From IMG/VR virus record IMGVR_UViG_3300009443_000004, positions 1 to 64,000 of that record: a DNA stretch of 64,000 bases. One strand, given 5' to 3'. The notes below the pieces were generated by a model. It had not been told where the DNA came from, searched no databases, and saw only the letters and a list, made by a program, of their open reading frames with translations. Below are positions 2,156-48,533 of the stretch, one piece after another (the first letter of the stretch is position 1; every line of letters starts with the position of its first letter). This DNA comes from a virus. The position numbers and the translations under genes were made by a program.

Positions 2156-5100
2156 TTATCTCTGTGATAATAATAATTTAGTATTCTCTAATCTTAATAG
2201 CATTTTTTTATTTCCTGATACTTGTCTTCTAAGTAAAACATGATTAGAATAATGTCTAAACTTTTTTCTTTGAGTTTCAGGTTTAAAGTAATTAAGATTT
2301 GTTTGGTTTAGTGGTCTAGTATACCCATTGCATTGAGTGTTAAAGACAGATTGCTCTGCATTAGTAAACTCACCTCTATCATTAGTAATATCCCAGAATT
2401 GGTTTATTCTAAATTTATGTTCTACTTTAGATGCTAACACTGTCATATCATTAGCAGTTACTATGGGGTATGTTAATTCACCCCATGGATTATTAAATGG
2501 CTGTGAAGTAATATTTAATAAACCTGATACCTGATCATTATTATAAATAATAGCTTTATCAAAGTTAAATAGTAAATCTTCATATTTATCACCACCACAC
2601 ATATTATACTCTGGCTCACCTTTGTATATATATGTTTCTAATTGATATTCTATACTTCTTATAGTATTTACTTGCTGACCAGTGTTGTTAATTAATTCTA
2701 CTTCCCAAGCATAATTATCACCATAATAATTTGCAAATAAATCACATCTAACATTATGTCTCCAAAATGACCCTACTTTATAGTTAGCTTGTACAAAATC
2801 AGCATAGTAGTAATTACATTCTGGCGGAGTTGGATCAACCCAATTAGGATCACCTATTAAACCTAATTCAGGAAATGTATCTGGACAAGTTCCAAGTGTA
2901 GTTGTTGTTGTGCCTACGGGTCCTGGAGGACAATCCTCACACTCTACCTTTCTACAAACAGGTGGATTTATATCATCACATGTTCCTGTAGCATCCGTAT
3001 AGAATCCATTAGTAGCATTAGGATATACTAGTGTATAGCCTGCTGGGCAATCACAACTAAATGGAATAGTACAAACTTGATTTGCTATTTGTTGTGCTGT
3101 AGCCTGCAATGATGCTGGAACACTTGCATTCATTATAAATTGATTTGGTCCAGGTGTTATTGGAGGACCTGGATTATAGTATGCATTAGCAGGACCTGCA
3201 CCAGCACCAACTGTTATTTGATCAATAATAGTTGCATTACCTGGACCATTTGCATTTGGACTTACAAACACAGACATCAACTCTTGGTTAACTGGGCCAC
3301 CTGCTCCAGGTATAACATTTGCACTTTGCAAAGAATTAAAACTTTGTGGAGTTAATATGTTGTTACCCGAAGTAATTGCATTACCATCTGTTACTACAAT
3401 TAAAATTTGTCTAAAGAAAGGATCAGCACTTCTTGCTGGATAATTAGCAGCATAAGCTGATCCAGCTTTATTATTAAGCTGTGTTAATCCATTGTTTCTT
3501 GCAAGTTGTGCATTGGTCTGACCACCTATACCATTTTGACTTGTCCAGTTATTTTGAAACCATGTTCTTGCTTGAGCTCCAGTAACAGCTCCTAACATAG
3601 ACTCTCCTGTACCAGTTGGATTTGCTTGAGCTGAACCAGTTGCCCAAGCTAAAAACCCTATCTGCATAGTATTTGCAGTTAATGCTGCTTGTATAGCAGG
3701 ATCATCTATAAAAGCCACCAACCATGTTAATTCTCCATCTGCTAAACTGTTTTGACCAGGGTTTGGATTACCTGTACTACCAGATGCATCTATAGCAATT
3801 ACAATATCTAATAAACAATTTTGTGGACCACCTGTAACTGTTGCAGGTATATCTTCTACTGTCACTGTTTGTGGCTCAGTAATATTTATAATGTTTTCAC
3901 ATTGACCTGTTGTAGAATTAAATGTATATCCTGGAGGGCAAATAGGTACTTCACTATCAATTGTTTTAGTAGTAAAGAAATGATTAATACTTGGTAATGC
4001 AAACTCAGGATGCCAGTCGTGGAATGATATCCATGCGTTAGCTTTAATGTCATAACTTATAGTCCAAGAACAATCATTAAAATAAATTGGATCACCTATA
4101 GCTACAGGTATATCCTTTACTTGCCAAGGTACATCAATCCTTACTGGTAAACTTAAATCATCAGAAAATGTTGCTTTATTAGCCCACTCAGATTTTAATG
4201 AAAAATCTTTCTTCATAAAATAGACTATATCATCATTAGGATCATACATAACTTGACAACCTACTCCTACTACAGGATTGTCAACCCATTCTGTACCTTC
4301 TGATTGTGGAAATTGTTTTATAAACCTTGATGGTAAATATTTATTAAACCACCATTTCATACCTTGATTAGATATAGCATTTAATCCTTTACCAGGTGTA
4401 AATTGGAATATCTTACCTTGAGCTTGAGAAATATAAAATAATCCAGCTGGTGTATTTATAATACCTCTCTGACTTTCCAATGATCCATATTCATTGCTTA
4501 AATCAGAATTAACTATATTCATTAACTTCTGTTTAAACAATGCCCCGTCTCCTACTGATACTAATGTATTTACATCTGTTTTTAATTGGAAAGATCCATC
4601 AAACATTTGAGGTGATTGATATGGAAAAAATATTACTGCCCCATTTTTATTAAATGGTTTTATAACTGAAACTATATTTTTAAAATCTTTATAGTTAGCA
4701 AATAAATATTGTCTCCAATAATCTTTTCTATCTTCTTCATTAGCTTGTAAAGAATAGATTAATCTCTTTGGGTAAGCTGTATAACAAGTTTCTGCAACCA
4801 AAGGGTTATAGTCTCTTGGTTGTATCTCAGCAAAGTTTGTGTTTTGTGTTATAAACTTTGATGGGCTAAGTGATTCATCATACTTATAAAAATTATCAAA
4901 CTTCTGTATCTCAGCATGAAATAAATCTCCTAAATCATTATATTCATATGTATCATAAAACCTTCTTTCTTTAGGTTCTTCCCAATCTCTATAAGCTATA
5001 TTAATTTCTGTCTCAACATAAAAATCATTTATACCATTCACATGAGTATACATGTATGCATGATTCATTGCAAAAGTATAATTTAAATTATCCGTATTAA

Positions 5101-16039: not shown

Positions 16040-16465
16040 TTATTTCCTACATAGAGCCGTAGCAGATACTTGACTTGAACTATCTATTTGTATCCAGTAC
16101 CCATTACCTATTTTACAATATCCCTCAGATAAACCTGTTGAACAACCTGAATTACTATATACATAATCTCCTGTAGTTGGAAAAGCACTACTACCATCAT
16201 GATAGTATGTTTGATTTACTGTTCCAGAACATGCAAGAGCTTCAGTACTTGCTACTGCAGTACTACTATACATCGTACATGTACCTGCAGATGCCCCATA
16301 AAAATCACTCATCTGAATAGCACCAGATGCAACACCTGCTAAATTTCTAAAACTAGTTTGACCTAAACTAGAATTAGCATTCTGTGCTAAACCAAGTTCT
16401 ACGTTAATAGATCTGTTAGTAGATGTACCACCTATAGACATTGTTCCACTACTTGCTAAGGCCAT
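16040..16465 (-). CDS. Small fibre-associated structural protein (141 aa)
   Basis: It opens MALASSGTMSIGGTSTNRSI and contains NLAGVASGAIQMSDFYGAS. This SIGG...SINVELG...LSDFYG signature is common in short structural proteins encoded beside phage tail fibres. The C-terminal half is cysteine-containing and Tyr/Gly/Ser-rich, typical of an exposed tip domain. It overlaps the end of the 1,451-aa fibre gene by 17 bases. Confidence 0.65.
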   Translation of the reverse strand: MALASSGTMSIGGTSTNRSINVELGLAQNANSSLGQTSFRNLAGVASGAIQMSDFYGASAGTCTMYSSTAVASTEALACSGTVNQTYYHDGSSAFPTTGDYVYSNSGCSTGLSEGYCKIGNGYWIQIDSSSQVSATALCRK

Positions 16466-41946: not shown

Positions 41947-42267
41947 CTAATTATTTATACATTCTGGATACGCCCTATTCATTATGTCTCTAATTTTAGC
42001 ACACCTTTCATACTCTTCAATTTCTATATAGTACGCTAACATATTTTCAAATTCGGTTAGTTCAGGACCATTGTCAGGATCAAACGCCAGTACGGCCTCA
42101 TGACCCTTCTTAAACTTCTTAATCATTAACTCTTCAAATGTTATCTGATTAGTTAATACTAGAAAAGAGTTCTCATATGCTGTCTCAAGTAGTATTGCAT
42201 CTAATTGCATTTGTTCTATTTCACTCAGCCCGTGATCTTCTCCATTATTGTCATCCCATTGTCCCAT
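41947..42267 (-). CDS. Acidic protein with UVR-like helical motif, first gene of the virion block (106 aa)
   Basis: Acidic (MGQWDDNNGEDHGLSEIEQM), with a C-terminal helix pair IEIEEYERCAKIRDIM that resembles the UVR protein-interaction motif of UvrB/UvrC. It is the promoter-proximal gene of the leftward block, two bases before the first basic protein. Its acidity opposite three basic neighbours could mean it binds them. That is inference. Confidence 0.6.
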   Translation of the reverse strand: MGQWDDNNGEDHGLSEIEQMQLDAILLETAYENSFLVLTNQITFEELMIKKFKKGHEAVLAFDPDNGPELTEFENMLAYYIEIEEYERCAKIRDIMNRAYPECINN

Positions 42268-42517: not shown

Positions 42518-42847
42518 ATGGTTTACTTTAGAAAACTAAACATCAATGAGTCTACTGGCTCAGCAACAATCATTGTGAGCTCTGCTCCAATGTCACAGAA
42601 ACAAACTACACTTGCTGGTTTGTCTGTGGGAACAAGAACTCAAGGAAACATCTCCTTTGGTGTTCTTTCACTAATAGACCCTGAAACTAATCAGGTGATG
42701 CGTAGTGACCACCCTACAATCAAACAGCTTGGAGCTAAGTTGAATGTAGGTGATGAGCTACCTAACTTCAAACTGTCTGACCAAAAGGTTGTCAACCTAC
42801 AGACTGGTGAGGAGAATGAGAACCTCTTCTGGGTTGAACAAGCCTAG
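42518..42847 (+). CDS. Early protein A, paralogue of the 112-aa protein (109 aa)
   Basis: First plus-strand gene. It shares about 70% of residues with the product of 43404-43742 over its whole length (YFRKLNINESTGSATII, FGVLSLIDPET.QVMRSDHP, FW at the end). Mostly beta-strands, small and soluble, no catalytic motif. Codons look richer in G and C than those of its paralogue and neighbours, a sign of high expression or different origin. It has its own terminator. A strongly expressed early protein (DNA- or host-enzyme-binding) is a guess. Confidence 0.75.
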   Translation: MVYFRKLNINESTGSATIIVSSAPMSQKQTTLAGLSVGTRTQGNISFGVLSLIDPETNQVMRSDHPTIKQLGAKLNVGDELPNFKLSDQKVVNLQTGEENENLFWVEQA

Positions 42848-42856
42848 ATGAAGTAC

Positions 42857-42889
42857 AGGGGTGTGTGTAACAGCACACCTCTTTTTTTT
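42857..42889 (+). terminator. Intrinsic terminator after early protein A
   Basis: 9-bp stem AGGGGTGTG/CACACCTCT (one G-U pair), 8-base loop TGTAACAG, then eight T. Confidence 0.92.
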
Positions 42890-42921
42890 AACTAAAAGCT
42901 GGAGAGCGTACTCACTAAATT

Positions 42922-43140
42922 ATGGAAAACAGATTGTACAAAATGCATCACAAGATAAAACTACAACTTGATGCTATCTGCCAAGAGGCAGGAGATATGA
43001 ATGTAGAAGAGTTTATGAAAGTGTATGAATCACTTAAACAAAAGGCTACTAAACCTAAACTAACAGGCATTGACCGTAGATTTCAAGAAGATATGATTGA
43101 TGCAGAGTTTAGTGAGATGGATATGATGGATGAATGGTAG
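42922..43140 (+). CDS. Small helical early protein (72 aa)
   Basis: Helical, with basic N-terminal and acidic Met-rich C-terminal halves (MENRLYKMHHKIKLQLDAIC; FSEMDMMDEW). It lies between two intrinsic terminators with no motif copy directly upstream, so it may depend on read-through. Function unknown. Confidence 0.6.
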   Translation: MENRLYKMHHKIKLQLDAICQEAGDMNVEEFMKVYESLKQKATKPKLTGIDRRFQEDMIDAEFSEMDMMDEW

Positions 43141-43147
43141 TAAATAA

Positions 43148-43175
43148 AGGTGTGTGTAAAAGCACATCTTTTTTT
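43148..43175 (+). terminator. Intrinsic terminator after the 72-aa gene
   Basis: 7-bp stem AGGTGTG/CACATCT (one G-U pair) with loop TGTAAAAG, then seven T. Stem and loop resemble the terminator at 42857. Confidence 0.88.
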
Positions 43176-43180
43176 AAACA

Positions 43181-43202
43181 ACTGCTCCCTTCCCATAATA
43201 TG
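43181..43202 (+). promoter_or_regulatory. Early promoter motif copy driving the structured RNA
   Basis: ACTGCTCCCTTCC-CATAA-TATG. It lies between the terminator of the previous gene and the structured RNA, whose closing stem starts at the final G of TATG. This fixes the likely transcription start near TATG. Confidence 0.7.
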
Positions 43203-43297
43203 TACTGGGAATGCATCCTGGGGAAGCAAGGCCTGCGGAGGCTACTGCTTAATACACCTACCAGAGGAGGTTCTACGGATGCACCAGTACTTTTTTT
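43200..43297 (+). ncRNA. Candidate small structured RNA with its own terminator
   Basis: Closing stem P1: GTACTGG (43202-43208) pairs with CCAGTAC (43284-43290), and after a three-base bulge TGCATCC (43212-43218) pairs with GGATGCA (43277-43283): 14 pairs, then T7 (43291-43297). Inside, P2 pairs AAGCA with TGCTT and GGCCT with AGGCT (43224-43250), capped by GCGG. P3 pairs ACCT with AGGT (43256-43271). The G/C content is far above the surroundings. No known RNA family is recognised. A 34-codon frame from ATG 43200 exists but looks incidental. Confidence 0.7.
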
Positions 43298-43346
43298 ACT
43301 TTAACTGCTACTGCTCATACAATCTTATACCATCCATATAACTTTC

Positions 43347-43368
43347 ACTGCTCCCTTCCTTTCTTATG
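43347..43368 (+). promoter_or_regulatory. Early promoter motif copy before early protein B
   Basis: ACTGCTCCCTTCC-TTTCT-TATG, ending 35 bases before ATG 43404. It lies downstream of the RNA gene's terminator. Confidence 0.7.
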
Positions 43369-43403
43369 CAAATATTTATTAATCATTAATTATAATTAAA
43401 ATT

Positions 43404-43742
43404 ATGGAAACAAATTCAGTTTATTTTAGAAAGCTCAATATCAATGAGTCAACAGGAAGTGCAACTATTATTGCATCAGATGTACCATTGATACAAAAAG
43501 CTACTACATTAGCAGGCGTTAATGTAGCAACAAGAACACAGAACAACATCACATTTGGCGTATTAAGCCTAATAGATCCAGAGACTGGACAAGTAATGCG
43601 TTCTGATCATCCAGTCATCAAACAGTTAAGTGCTAAACTTAATAGAGGTGATGAGATGAAAGGCTTCAAGCTATCTGATAATCCTGTGTTAAACCTAACA
43701 ACAGGAGAAGAATCAGGTATGTTTTGGATAGAAGCAGTGTAA
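43404..43742 (+). CDS. Early protein B, paralogue of the 109-aa protein (112 aa)
   Basis: Aligns end to end with early protein A, with three extra N-terminal residues (METNSVYFRKLNINESTGSA). Conserved blocks include TLAG, TRTQ.NI.FGVLSLIDPET and the C-terminal FW. It has a full unit of its own: motif copy, 35-base leader, gene and a strong terminator. Codons are A/T-richer than in paralogue A. Function unknown. Confidence 0.75.
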   Translation: METNSVYFRKLNINESTGSATIIASDVPLIQKATTLAGVNVATRTQNNITFGVLSLIDPETGQVMRSDHPVIKQLSAKLNRGDEMKGFKLSDNPVLNLTTGEESGMFWIEAV

Positions 43743-43765
43743 ACCTGCAGTAAAAGGTAAAAACT

Positions 43766-43808
43766 CTACAGATCTGGTGTAACAACCAGGTTTGTAGTTG
43801 TTTTTTTT
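43766..43808 (+). terminator. Very strong intrinsic terminator
   Basis: 13-bp stem CTACAGATCTGGT/ACCAGGTTTGTAG (two G-U pairs), loop GTAACA, then TTG and eight T. The loop resembles that of the terminator at 42857. Confidence 0.93.
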
Positions 43809-43909
43809 ATTTAAATGTGTATAGCATTATAAATGTGAGGTCTCATACCCACAATATACCACCTTTTACCACTATCATAACTATCATAGCACATTAATAT
43901 ATTAATATA

Positions 43910-44008
43910 GCTAACATAAGAGCATAAACATTAAATTGGGTATGGTACGGAGATTGACAATTGATTTGCAAGTCATGCGTCCACGTTTATCATCACTCTT
44001 ATGCTAGC
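43910..44008 (+). ncRNA. Inverted-repeat-bounded region, possible structured RNA
   Basis: GCTAACATAAG (43910-43920) and CTTATGCTAGC (43998-44008) pair at 10 of 11 positions. A second, perfect 7-bp pair AGCATAA/TTATGCT (43921-43927 and 43999-44005) competes with it. The 70-odd enclosed bases are G/C-richer and contain TTTGCAAG as in a tRNA anticodon loop, but no cloverleaf can be drawn. It lies in a 393-base gap without a credible gene. Confidence 0.4.
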
Positions 44009-44049
44009 TTATATTACAAGAGTAACTATTACACTCAACAATACTACAT

Positions 44050-44095
44050 GGGTAATGTCTGTCTCTTCCTCTATAGGATAATAGACATAGTACCC
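44050..44095 (+). other. Long hairpin upstream of the 63-aa gene
   Basis: GGGTA-ATGTCT (44050-44060) pairs with AGACAT-AG-TACCC (44083-44095): 11 pairs with a two-base bulge. The loop includes CTGTCTCTTCC, a loose likeness of the early motif. No T-tract follows, so it is not a plain terminator. Confidence 0.45.
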
Positions 44096-44135
44096 GGAAT
44101 CTTATTAATCAAATGTCTAAATTAAATAAACAATT

Positions 44136-44327
44136 ATGAAAATTTCATCAGTAAAGGTTTTAAGATCAGCAGCTGGATATTACATAGGTCGTACAGAGAA
44201 TGGTATGCCTTATGATAGACAGTCACGTTATCATAAAACTAAGCAAGAAGCAGAACACACATTAAAAGTAATCAAACATAACCAGGAGAGAGAATATATA
44301 TCGTATTGTAATCTCCATAATAATTAA
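44136..44327 (+). CDS. Small early protein (63 aa)
   Basis: Basic, with AAGYYIGRTENGMPYDRQSR and a C-terminal helix (KQEAEHTLKVIKHNQERE). I have seen this (A/S)AGYYIG...MPYDR(Q/E)S type in other phages as a short orphan protein. The start follows AATAAACAATT, a typical A-rich Bacteroidota leader. Function unknown. Confidence 0.65.
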   Translation: MKISSVKVLRSAAGYYIGRTENGMPYDRQSRYHKTKQEAEHTLKVIKHNQEREYISYCNLHNN

Positions 44328-47487: not shown

Positions 47488-48024
47488 ATGCTATCTCAGG
47501 AACAATTAGAACAACTTCAACAACAACAACAACTAGACAATCTTTCCAGAAGGGAAGAACGTTACAGCTACTTTGGTATATTAGCTGAATATCAGCTTCA
47601 TCCGCCATCATTAGTAAACTCTTTAAGTTACACCAAGCTAAATCCGTATCAACATTTTTTGTTTAAACGTGTACTTCATGGCCTTAAGGTTTATAAACCT
47701 GAAGAAGTTAGGAAGCTACATTGGGACAAGAAACGTAGAATAACTAAGGTTTGGAAACGTGGACAGAGAGAGATAAATGCTTGGAAGCAAACTATTTGTA
47801 ATAAGCGTGTAAATGCTTATCTTAGCAATACATTCAAGCATTCTCCATTAGCACAGTATATTGCAAATATACCAGCTAGTGAAGTATTAGATGATTACAC
47901 TAACACTATGAGTTTCAAAGAGTTAGGTATGACTTATGAGGATGTAATATTAAAATTTATGTCTTTGGGATTACTCCCTAAAAACTATTTAGAACTAAAA
48001 AATGAGCATCAAAAAAGTGTCTAA
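47488..48024 (+). CDS. Phage protein of unknown function (178 aa)
   Basis: Gln-rich start (MLSQEQLEQLQQQQQLDNLS), then a basic central region (RKLHWDKKRRITKVWKRGQR) and a C-terminal part with ELGMTYEDVILKFMSLGLLP. The basic Trp/Arg/Lys segment suggests nucleic-acid binding. It overlaps the HNH-like gene by 23 bases, so they are co-translated. Confidence 0.65.
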   Translation: MLSQEQLEQLQQQQQLDNLSRREERYSYFGILAEYQLHPPSLVNSLSYTKLNPYQHFLFKRVLHGLKVYKPEEVRKLHWDKKRRITKVWKRGQREINAWKQTICNKRVNAYLSNTFKHSPLAQYIANIPASEVLDDYTNTMSFKELGMTYEDVILKFMSLGLLPKNYLELKNEHQKSV

Positions 48025-48277: not shown

Positions 48278-48354
48278 GGTCCTATAGCTCAACTGGATAG
48301 AGCAACAGCCTTCTAAGCTGTAGGTTCTAGGTTCAAATCCTAGTGGGATCACCA
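48278..48354 (+). tRNA. tRNA-Arg (anticodon TCT)
   Basis: Seven acceptor pairs (GGTCCTA/TGGGATC), D arm with GCTCAACTGGATAGAGC, anticodon arm ACAGC-CTTCTAA-GCTGT and T arm CTAGG-TTCAAAT-CCTAG, with encoded ACCA. It reads AGA, the favoured Arg codon of this AT-rich genome. Confidence 0.95.
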
Positions 48355-48443
48355 GGCCGGATGATGGAATTGGTAGACATGACAGACTTAAAATCTGTTG
48401 AACTGGATAGTTCGTGTGGGTTCAAGTCCCACTCCGGCTACCA
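48355..48443 (+). tRNA. tRNA-Leu (anticodon TAA)
   Basis: Acceptor GGCCGGA/TCCGGCT, anticodon arm ACAGA-CTTAAAA-TCTGT, long variable arm typical of Leu, T arm GTGGG-TTCAAGT-CCCAC, encoded CCA. It reads UUA. It starts on the base after the previous tRNA, so both are processed from one transcript. Confidence 0.95.
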
Positions 48444-48517
48444 GGACTCTTAGCTCAGTTGGTCAGAGCACTCCGCTCATAACGGATAGGTCATAGGTTC
48501 AAGTCCTATAGGGTCCA
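48444..48517 (+). tRNA. tRNA with anticodon CAT (Met or Ile2)
   Basis: Acceptor GGACTCT/AGGGTCC, D arm GCTCAGTTGGTCAGAGC, anticodon loop CTCATAA, T arm ATAGG-TTCAAGT-CCTAT. The 3' sequence is ACCT, so CCA is not fully encoded. Elongator Met and lysidine-modified Ile2 (AUA) cannot be told apart by eye; Ile2 would fit AUA-rich genes. Confidence 0.92.
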
Positions 48518-48533
48518 CCTTAAATGTAACATT

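Follow-up and report, generated by a model that had tools for sequence, protein, structure and literature searches.

A conserved structured RNA with a predicted three-way junction in aquatic crAss-like phages

Small structured RNAs encoded by phages are already known as a kind. Among viral RNAs with a comparable principle, adenovirus VA RNA is a short (~160 nt), highly structured transcript of a eukaryotic virus that has its own promoter and ties up a host enzyme. Bacterial Y RNA/YrlA, the partner of Rsr/TROVE proteins, is likewise short and is closed by a bulged stem that joins its 5' and 3' ends. RNA anti-CRISPRs (Racrs) are described as small non-coding phage RNAs that occur as solitary units, mimic CRISPR repeats and act as host-directed decoys (PMC10651486). 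Grad-seq of the Pseudomonas phage PhiKZ yielded a ~100-nt intergenic RNA (PMC8545117). In the gut, crAss-like phages are both widespread and abundant; the early genes of crAss001 are reported to form one module, and a similar module of a marine relative is reportedly transcribed by a virion RNA polymerase (PMC8375218). Here, we report that positions 43200–43297 of an aquatic crAss-like phage sequence carry what compensatory substitutions in several helices indicate to be a conserved structured RNA.

The window, meaning the whole 64,000-nucleotide (64-kb) stretch of DNA that was analysed, is part of a 71,640-base IMG/VR virus record (IMGVR_UViG_3300009443_000004). Its terminase matches Crassvirales (e.g. 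cr1_1 and cr114_1) and Flavobacterium phages (e.g. FpV4) at 22–27% identity, with 60 of 116 records listed, and PHROGs assignments were obtained for the terminase and the major head protein. The two gene arms diverge, the leftward genes ending at 42267 and the small rightward genes starting at 42518. A preliminary description of this DNA had placed the RNA between two early protein genes. The placement holds, since the RNA lies between ORFs of 72 and 112 amino acids (Table 1), and the region is probably "early", a term that reflects position alone. Searches of Pfam and PHROGs returned no match for either neighbour. Two similar proteins of ~110 amino acids, encoded at 42518–42847 and 43404–43742, flank the RNA slot, and neither matches Pfam or PHROGs. 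Three contiguous tRNA genes (Arg-tct, Leu-taa and Met-cat) occupy 48278–48519, and the fetched RNA-bearing stretches of L070, L074 and L075 also carry a tRNA-Arg(tct).

Table 1 Positions of the RNA, its parts and associated elements (coordinates of the window unless another stretch is named).
Feature	Coordinates	Strand	Remarks
Upstream neighbour ORF, 72 aa	42922..43140	+	Function unassigned
Hairpin with U run following the preceding gene, terminator-like	43148..43176	+	Read from the sequence; the consensus scan did not list it
Promoter-like motif TGCTCCCTTCC	43183..43193	+	Separated from the first P1 pair by 8 bases
Predicted RNA gene, ~96–98 nt	43200..43297	+	5' end at ~43200–43202, 3' end in the U7 run; from fold, covariance model and homologues
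P1 outer, 7 bp	43202..43208 with 43284–43290	+	All 7 pairs double-sided; 80.4% of cells paired
GAA bulge	43209..43211	+	GAA or CAA in most homologues; absent or altered in L016, L082 and L118
P1 inner, 7 + 4 pairs	43212..43222 with 43277–43283 and 43272–43275	+	5 of 11 pairs double-sided; 98.6% of cells paired
P2 hairpin	43224..43250 (43224–43228/43246–43250 and 43230–43234/43239–43243, loop 43235–43238)	+	2 of 10 pairs double-sided; 97.9% of cells paired
P3 hairpin, CCU/AGG	43257..43267 (43257–43259/43265–43267, loop 43260–43264)	+	Invariant in 14 of 14 distinct rows
Proposed L2–L3 loop–loop contact	43237..43238 with 43261–43262	+	One covarying pair, one invariant
U7 run after the 3' strand of P1	43291..43297	+	Resembles the 3' end of an intrinsic terminator
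Downstream neighbour ORF, 112 aa	43404..43742	+	Resembles 42518–42847; own promoter-motif copy at 43349
RNA-C copies	L069 5926–6022; L017 3752–3848; L118 2967–3064; L082 189–297	−; +; −; +	

The minimum free energy (MFE) of 43200–43297 is −38.3 kcal/mol (z −3.96), and none of 200 shuffles folds as low. This is the lowest MFE among 1278 hundred-base segments of the + strand; at least 12 other + strand segments show a more extreme z than the RNA, which scores −3.2 in that scan (40 shuffles). The 100-base stretches of the + strand at 48001, 60101, 45201 and 47351 have folding z-scores of −5.4 to −6.7. The RNA is G/C-richer than its surroundings, as had been noted: its G+C content is 50%, compared with 33% in the window and 28% in the non-coding flanks next to it. 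The earlier proposal of a 14-bp closing stem with a 3-base bulge, two inner helices and a T7 tail is recovered as well: P1 comprises 7 bp, the bulge and a further 7 bp (43212–43218/43277–43283), and P2, P3 and the final U run are all present. That proposal had, however, overlooked four additional pairs beyond a single bulged C (C43276). For P3, the single-sequence MFE version (4 + 2 pairs) is not the conserved one; homologues keep CCU/AGG with a five-base loop. Folding is modest in L078 (z −1.8) and L016 (z −2.1), and the shortest homologue, L116, in which inner P1 is missing, does not fold more stably than its shuffles (z 0.55).

Among the 14 distinct sequences of the final 16-row alignment, which was fitted to the covariance model and hence leans towards the model fold, 15 of 33 pairs show double-sided changes with pairing retained, compared with 0 of 500 shuffles and at most 7 pairs in slid controls; the shuffles ignore relatedness, so these figures are counts and not probabilities. 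One of the 15 is the proposed loop–loop pair. An 11-row alignment gave 13 double-sided pairs out of 31, a value reached by none of 500 shuffles and followed at a distance by the slid versions (≤5). RNAalifold, run unaided on these 11 rows, returned the same fold minus the three outermost pairs, with 10 of its 28 pairs double-sided. The compensatory changes that the preliminary description had named as confirmation for P1 to P3 are thus seen across homologues in P1 and P2, and covariation supports outer P1, inner P1 and P2. P3, being invariant in all distinct rows, provides evidence neither for nor against its pairing. A contact between L2 and L3 is hypothesized from one evolutionary change, since 43237–43262 reads as C-G in 12 rows and as G-C in two (the window and L015); the adjacent 43238–43261 is invariant. 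The AAU of the P2–P3 junction and most of L2 and L3 are invariant and unpaired.

Coding potential was checked by translating six members. The 34-codon frame that begins at ATG43200 is interrupted twice by stops in L097 and three times in L116; in L070, L068 and L117 it lacks a start within the RNA. A second frame stays open across the core, and in L068 it has no start codon after the stop that lies upstream. A one-base deletion in L097 and L098 shifts every downstream frame. Contrary indications come from mechanical ORFs with upstream starts, which cross the RNA in the 34-codon frame in L070 (TTG) and L082 (ATG) and in another frame in L078. Overall, the stops in L097 and L116 agree with the original view that no genuine protein frame is present, and the RNA is apparently non-coding, with no conserved coding frame. 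These observations, covariation together with a broken coding frame, support the proposed compact RNA gene with a three-way junction.

Pattern scans of IMG/VR located the RNA in 35 contigs, and each of the 35 fetched stretches contains a single copy of the core with P3. Phages of the window's genus carry identical or near-identical copies. A pattern for the 3' half returned 36 stretches, nine of them new; L097, L098 and L099 are homologues, and L095, L096 and L100–L103 were dropped because the RNA is absent. The covariance model, built from 11 sequences, matches in 14 of 27 records. Its match in the window spans 43198–43294 (106.8 bits, for a row that is part of the model's own training set), and a second weak match in G003 (13.7 bits) was judged on reading to be chance. 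The model has no match in any of the seven named records searched (six Crassvirales and FpV4) or in the close relatives G015, G016 and G017, and none in 395 Bacteroidota genomes searched with stricter filters and without a positive control. The RNA was not found in the slot of L010/L011. A DNA-similarity search of the named phage collection produced no homologue, only a single chance match of 29 bases (E 4), and a pattern scan of genome_contigs gave five matches, each without the rest of the RNA.

In Rfam 15, three tRNAs are the only matches in the window above the curated threshold. Relaxed searches gave two matches in 42800–44200 (E up to 5), none over 43200–43297, and no match over the RNA at six homologue loci (E up to 1). 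Searches of open-licence PMC papers returned none that describes a structured RNA family in crAss-like phages. The earlier wording "previously undescribed" is therefore sustained in the sense of having no match in Rfam 15 and open-licence PMC papers, and within that scope 43200–43297 would define an RNA family new to the catalogue and carried by aquatic crAss-like phages.

The motif reported in front of the RNA, TGCTCCCTTCC, proves to be a genuine repeated element, with 6 matches at ≤1 mismatch in the window against 0.47 expected; at ≤2 mismatches, 5 of 7 matches on the + strand lie 43–85 bases before an ORF. Sigma-70 promoters are no more numerous than in shuffles. In L117 and L119, whose terminases are 66% identical to that of the window, the neighbour genes use a different motif, ACATCTTWTTACTTA, one copy of which ends 4 bases before the RNA; in L119, 10 of 13 loose matches to it precede an ORF by 15–38 bases. 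Two different promoter-like motifs thus adjoin the gene at one and the same position. An element similar to the hairpin behind the preceding gene occurs behind 42847 and in relatives. The terminator consensus scan omits the U7 end of the RNA, as the loop is too large for it. A U run also lies 3' of the stem in L070/L074, L117/L119 and L097, and no such run follows it in L068, L016 and L078. The runs after P1 in the window, L070 and L119 look like terminators. In L069, from the far clade described below, the RNA starts ~25 bases downstream of a lipoprotein-like ORF; neither a promoter nor a U run is obvious there, and the RNA may be processed from a longer transcript.

The distribution of the RNA was compared with a terminase tree of those carriers that have a terminase on the contig (L097, L098, L099, L116 and L082 were not placed). 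Carriers fall in two deep clades, forcing at least two changes, although some branches are long and some joins uncertain. The window's clade includes the carriers G003, G006, G010, G022 and G024, and the far clade includes G002, G004, G005, G007, G008 and G023, whose terminases are 26–27% identical to the window's. Between members of the two clades, the core columns of the RNA are 81–98% identical. The flanking proteins of L016 are 91–96% identical to those of the window, placing it in the window's genus. Its RNA is 85% identical to that of far-clade L118, versus 68–69% to those of the window and L015, and its core is 100% identical to that of L070 and 98% to that of L118; the core is thus as near to L070, from the wider clade of the window, as to far-clade phages. 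Under vertical descent, the core would have to be almost unchanged across the deep splits yet altered by 15% across a shallow one. Replacement of the L016 RNA by transfer is therefore the simpler reading and points to exchange. Strong purifying selection without transfer is a less likely alternative.

Inspection by eye of the slot in 17 printed stretches identified this RNA in three, another structured RNA in five, a small ORF without RNA in four and neither in five. The RNA gene therefore appears to be present, absent or replaced in the manner of an accessory cassette. Other structured RNAs fill the same slot in relatives: L029 2685–2808, L014 2788–2890 and L017 2770–2872 are three dissimilar strong folds behind a promoter-like motif (z −4.6, −2.8 and −4.3, respectively). 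RNA-C is common to the window's genus (L017) and the far clade; its first hairpin displays double-sided compensatory changes by eye, and its fold alone is modest (z −1.7 in L069). It adjoins the present RNA (RNA-A) in L082 and is ~1.5 kb from it in L118, and one further RNA-like stretch lies between RNA-A and RNA-C in L069. A second structured insert of ~100 bases with long complementary ends (z −2.3) is found in the window at 43916–44012. The nearly identical phage L003/L044 has an empty site there, L012 carries a 93% copy elsewhere (3893–3999) and in L016 another RNA-like insert occupies this site; the window's insert is proposed to be mobile. Tentatively, and with clearly less confidence than we place in the function proposed below, these elements could belong to a shared pool of structured RNA genes that serve as RNA counter-defence or host-takeover factors and are swapped between aquatic crAss-like families, always in fixed slots close to where the rightward gene arm begins. 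Such a pool would include RNA-A, RNA-C, the slot RNAs of L029, L014 and L017 and the 43916–44012 insert, and, if real, would be an RNA counterpart of protein anti-defence islands. Separately, in crAss001 (NC_049977.1, ~96.2–96.6 kb, − strand; stretch L142), a tRNA-like RNA and a second tRNA-like stretch adjoin the TROVE (Ro-like) protein Gp96. The first, at L142 16454–16597, has a long insert and matches Rfam tRNA with 46.6 bits over 144 bases, and the second was seen by eye at ~16215–16345; both are candidate phage YrlA-type Y RNAs.

We suggest, giving the idea about even weight, that the locus is a stand-alone RNA gene whose product acts in trans, most likely by binding a conserved factor of the Bacteroidota host as a decoy or inhibitor. 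The RNA would be made early in infection from its own promoter and end in its own terminator, its P2 and P3 hairpins would dock through their loops, and it would bind and divert a conserved Bacteroidota molecule, either a gene-expression component or an enzyme of defence. Two observations make a host molecule the most likely partner: the core is near-constant in phages whose terminases differ at roughly three out of four positions, and the gene comes, goes and is replaced in the way of an accessory cassette. The passage of a covariation-supported RNA across phage lineages with divergent terminases points to a conserved host target, and the ~45-base core offers a ready bait for finding it.

Mimicry of host rRNA was considered and rejected. 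In most members the core includes UACGAGAGG, a segment of the 23S sarcin-ricin loop; in the window, CAGA replaces GAGA. Three members compared with two Bacteroidota rRNA operons gave p 0.26–0.95, i.e. chance level, and comparison with E. coli gave p 0.05–0.65, the value of 0.05 coming from one L068 alignment. When 12 sequences were compared with Bacteroidota rRNA operons, RNA-C of L069 gave p 0.01 and its relative in L017 p 0.36.

The strongest competitor, which we hold to be a real but minority possibility, is an RNA directed at the phage itself, binding a phage protein (the virion or non-virion RNA polymerase, an early regulator or a packaging component) for transcription or assembly. Its position among promoter-motif genes fits such a role. 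However, the RNA is absent by model from G015, G016, G017 and all seven named records, although the polymerase is said to be general; it is also missing from the L010/L011 slot, and its core holds 81–98% identity across phages whose terminases share 26–27%. Binding of the phage polymerase, one of the functions first suggested, is accordingly disfavoured by the near-constant core and by close relatives without the RNA, and the host-factor decoy among those suggestions appears to fit better. Pairing with host or phage mRNAs through the loops or the junction strand is less probable again: the invariant unpaired stretches would suit it, but conserved bases are mostly in helices or short loops, with no long open seed. 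Riboswitches often contain three-way junctions with invariant cores, and this likeness, with the U run after P1, would agree with a riboswitch, attenuator or leader acting in cis on the downstream gene. That reading is improbable, given that the downstream ORF has its own motif copy at 43349 and that the ORFs adjoining homologues vary between lineages.

The remaining alternatives are weaker still. Small size and an invariant junction would be compatible with a self-cleaving ribozyme or processing element, as would hammerhead-ribozyme-like matches below the Rfam threshold near the RNA in L068 (884–946, 27 bits) and L078 (901–952, 25.1 bits), but no Rfam family matches over the RNA, which is its own unit in the window, and we consider this quite unlikely. 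A primer for a replication origin is marginally less credible: cumulative GC skew is lowest at 42–44 kb, where the RNA lies, yet the skew changes sign just where the two gene arms diverge, and close relatives are without the RNA. Least probable is a phage Y RNA partnering a TROVE/Ro protein, for which the end-to-end bulged stem and the TROVE protein among crAss001 early genes (PF05731, 5.5e-13) would speak, but which is largely refuted as regards a phage-encoded partner, since a search of 19 IMG/VR records, among them RNA carriers of 101, 112 and 118 kb, gave no TROVE match, and no Rfam match was obtained. In total, 0 of 25 records, many of them fragments, had the domain; the positive control crAss001 was detected, and PhiCrAssBcn18, of the same genus as crAss001, was also negative. 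A host Ro protein may still be a Y-RNA-type partner.

Relative to the systems introduced above, the decoy reading can be placed as follows. Bacterial Y RNA/YrlA shares with this RNA the bulged end stem, and a TROVE protein occurs in crAss001; it differs in that the searched carriers are without a TROVE domain and in that Rfam finds no match. With adenovirus VA RNA, the likeness is one of principle, in the proposed mechanism only. The PhiKZ RNA (PMC8545117) is alike, by its description, in standing alone between protein genes and in its length of ~100 nt. Another parallel is with the Racrs (PMC10651486): both are small non-coding phage RNAs in solitary units, and in the proposed reading both are host-directed decoys. 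Unlike the repeat-mimicking Racrs, this RNA has a predicted three-way junction and no match to an Rfam CRISPR repeat model; the CRISPR-DR models of Rfam, the sole repeats compared, gave one match, outside the RNA (CRISPR-DR47, E 0.51, 43342–43367, − strand). If this RNA is a decoy, it would add to CRISPR-repeat mimicry another RNA route by which phages disarm their hosts.
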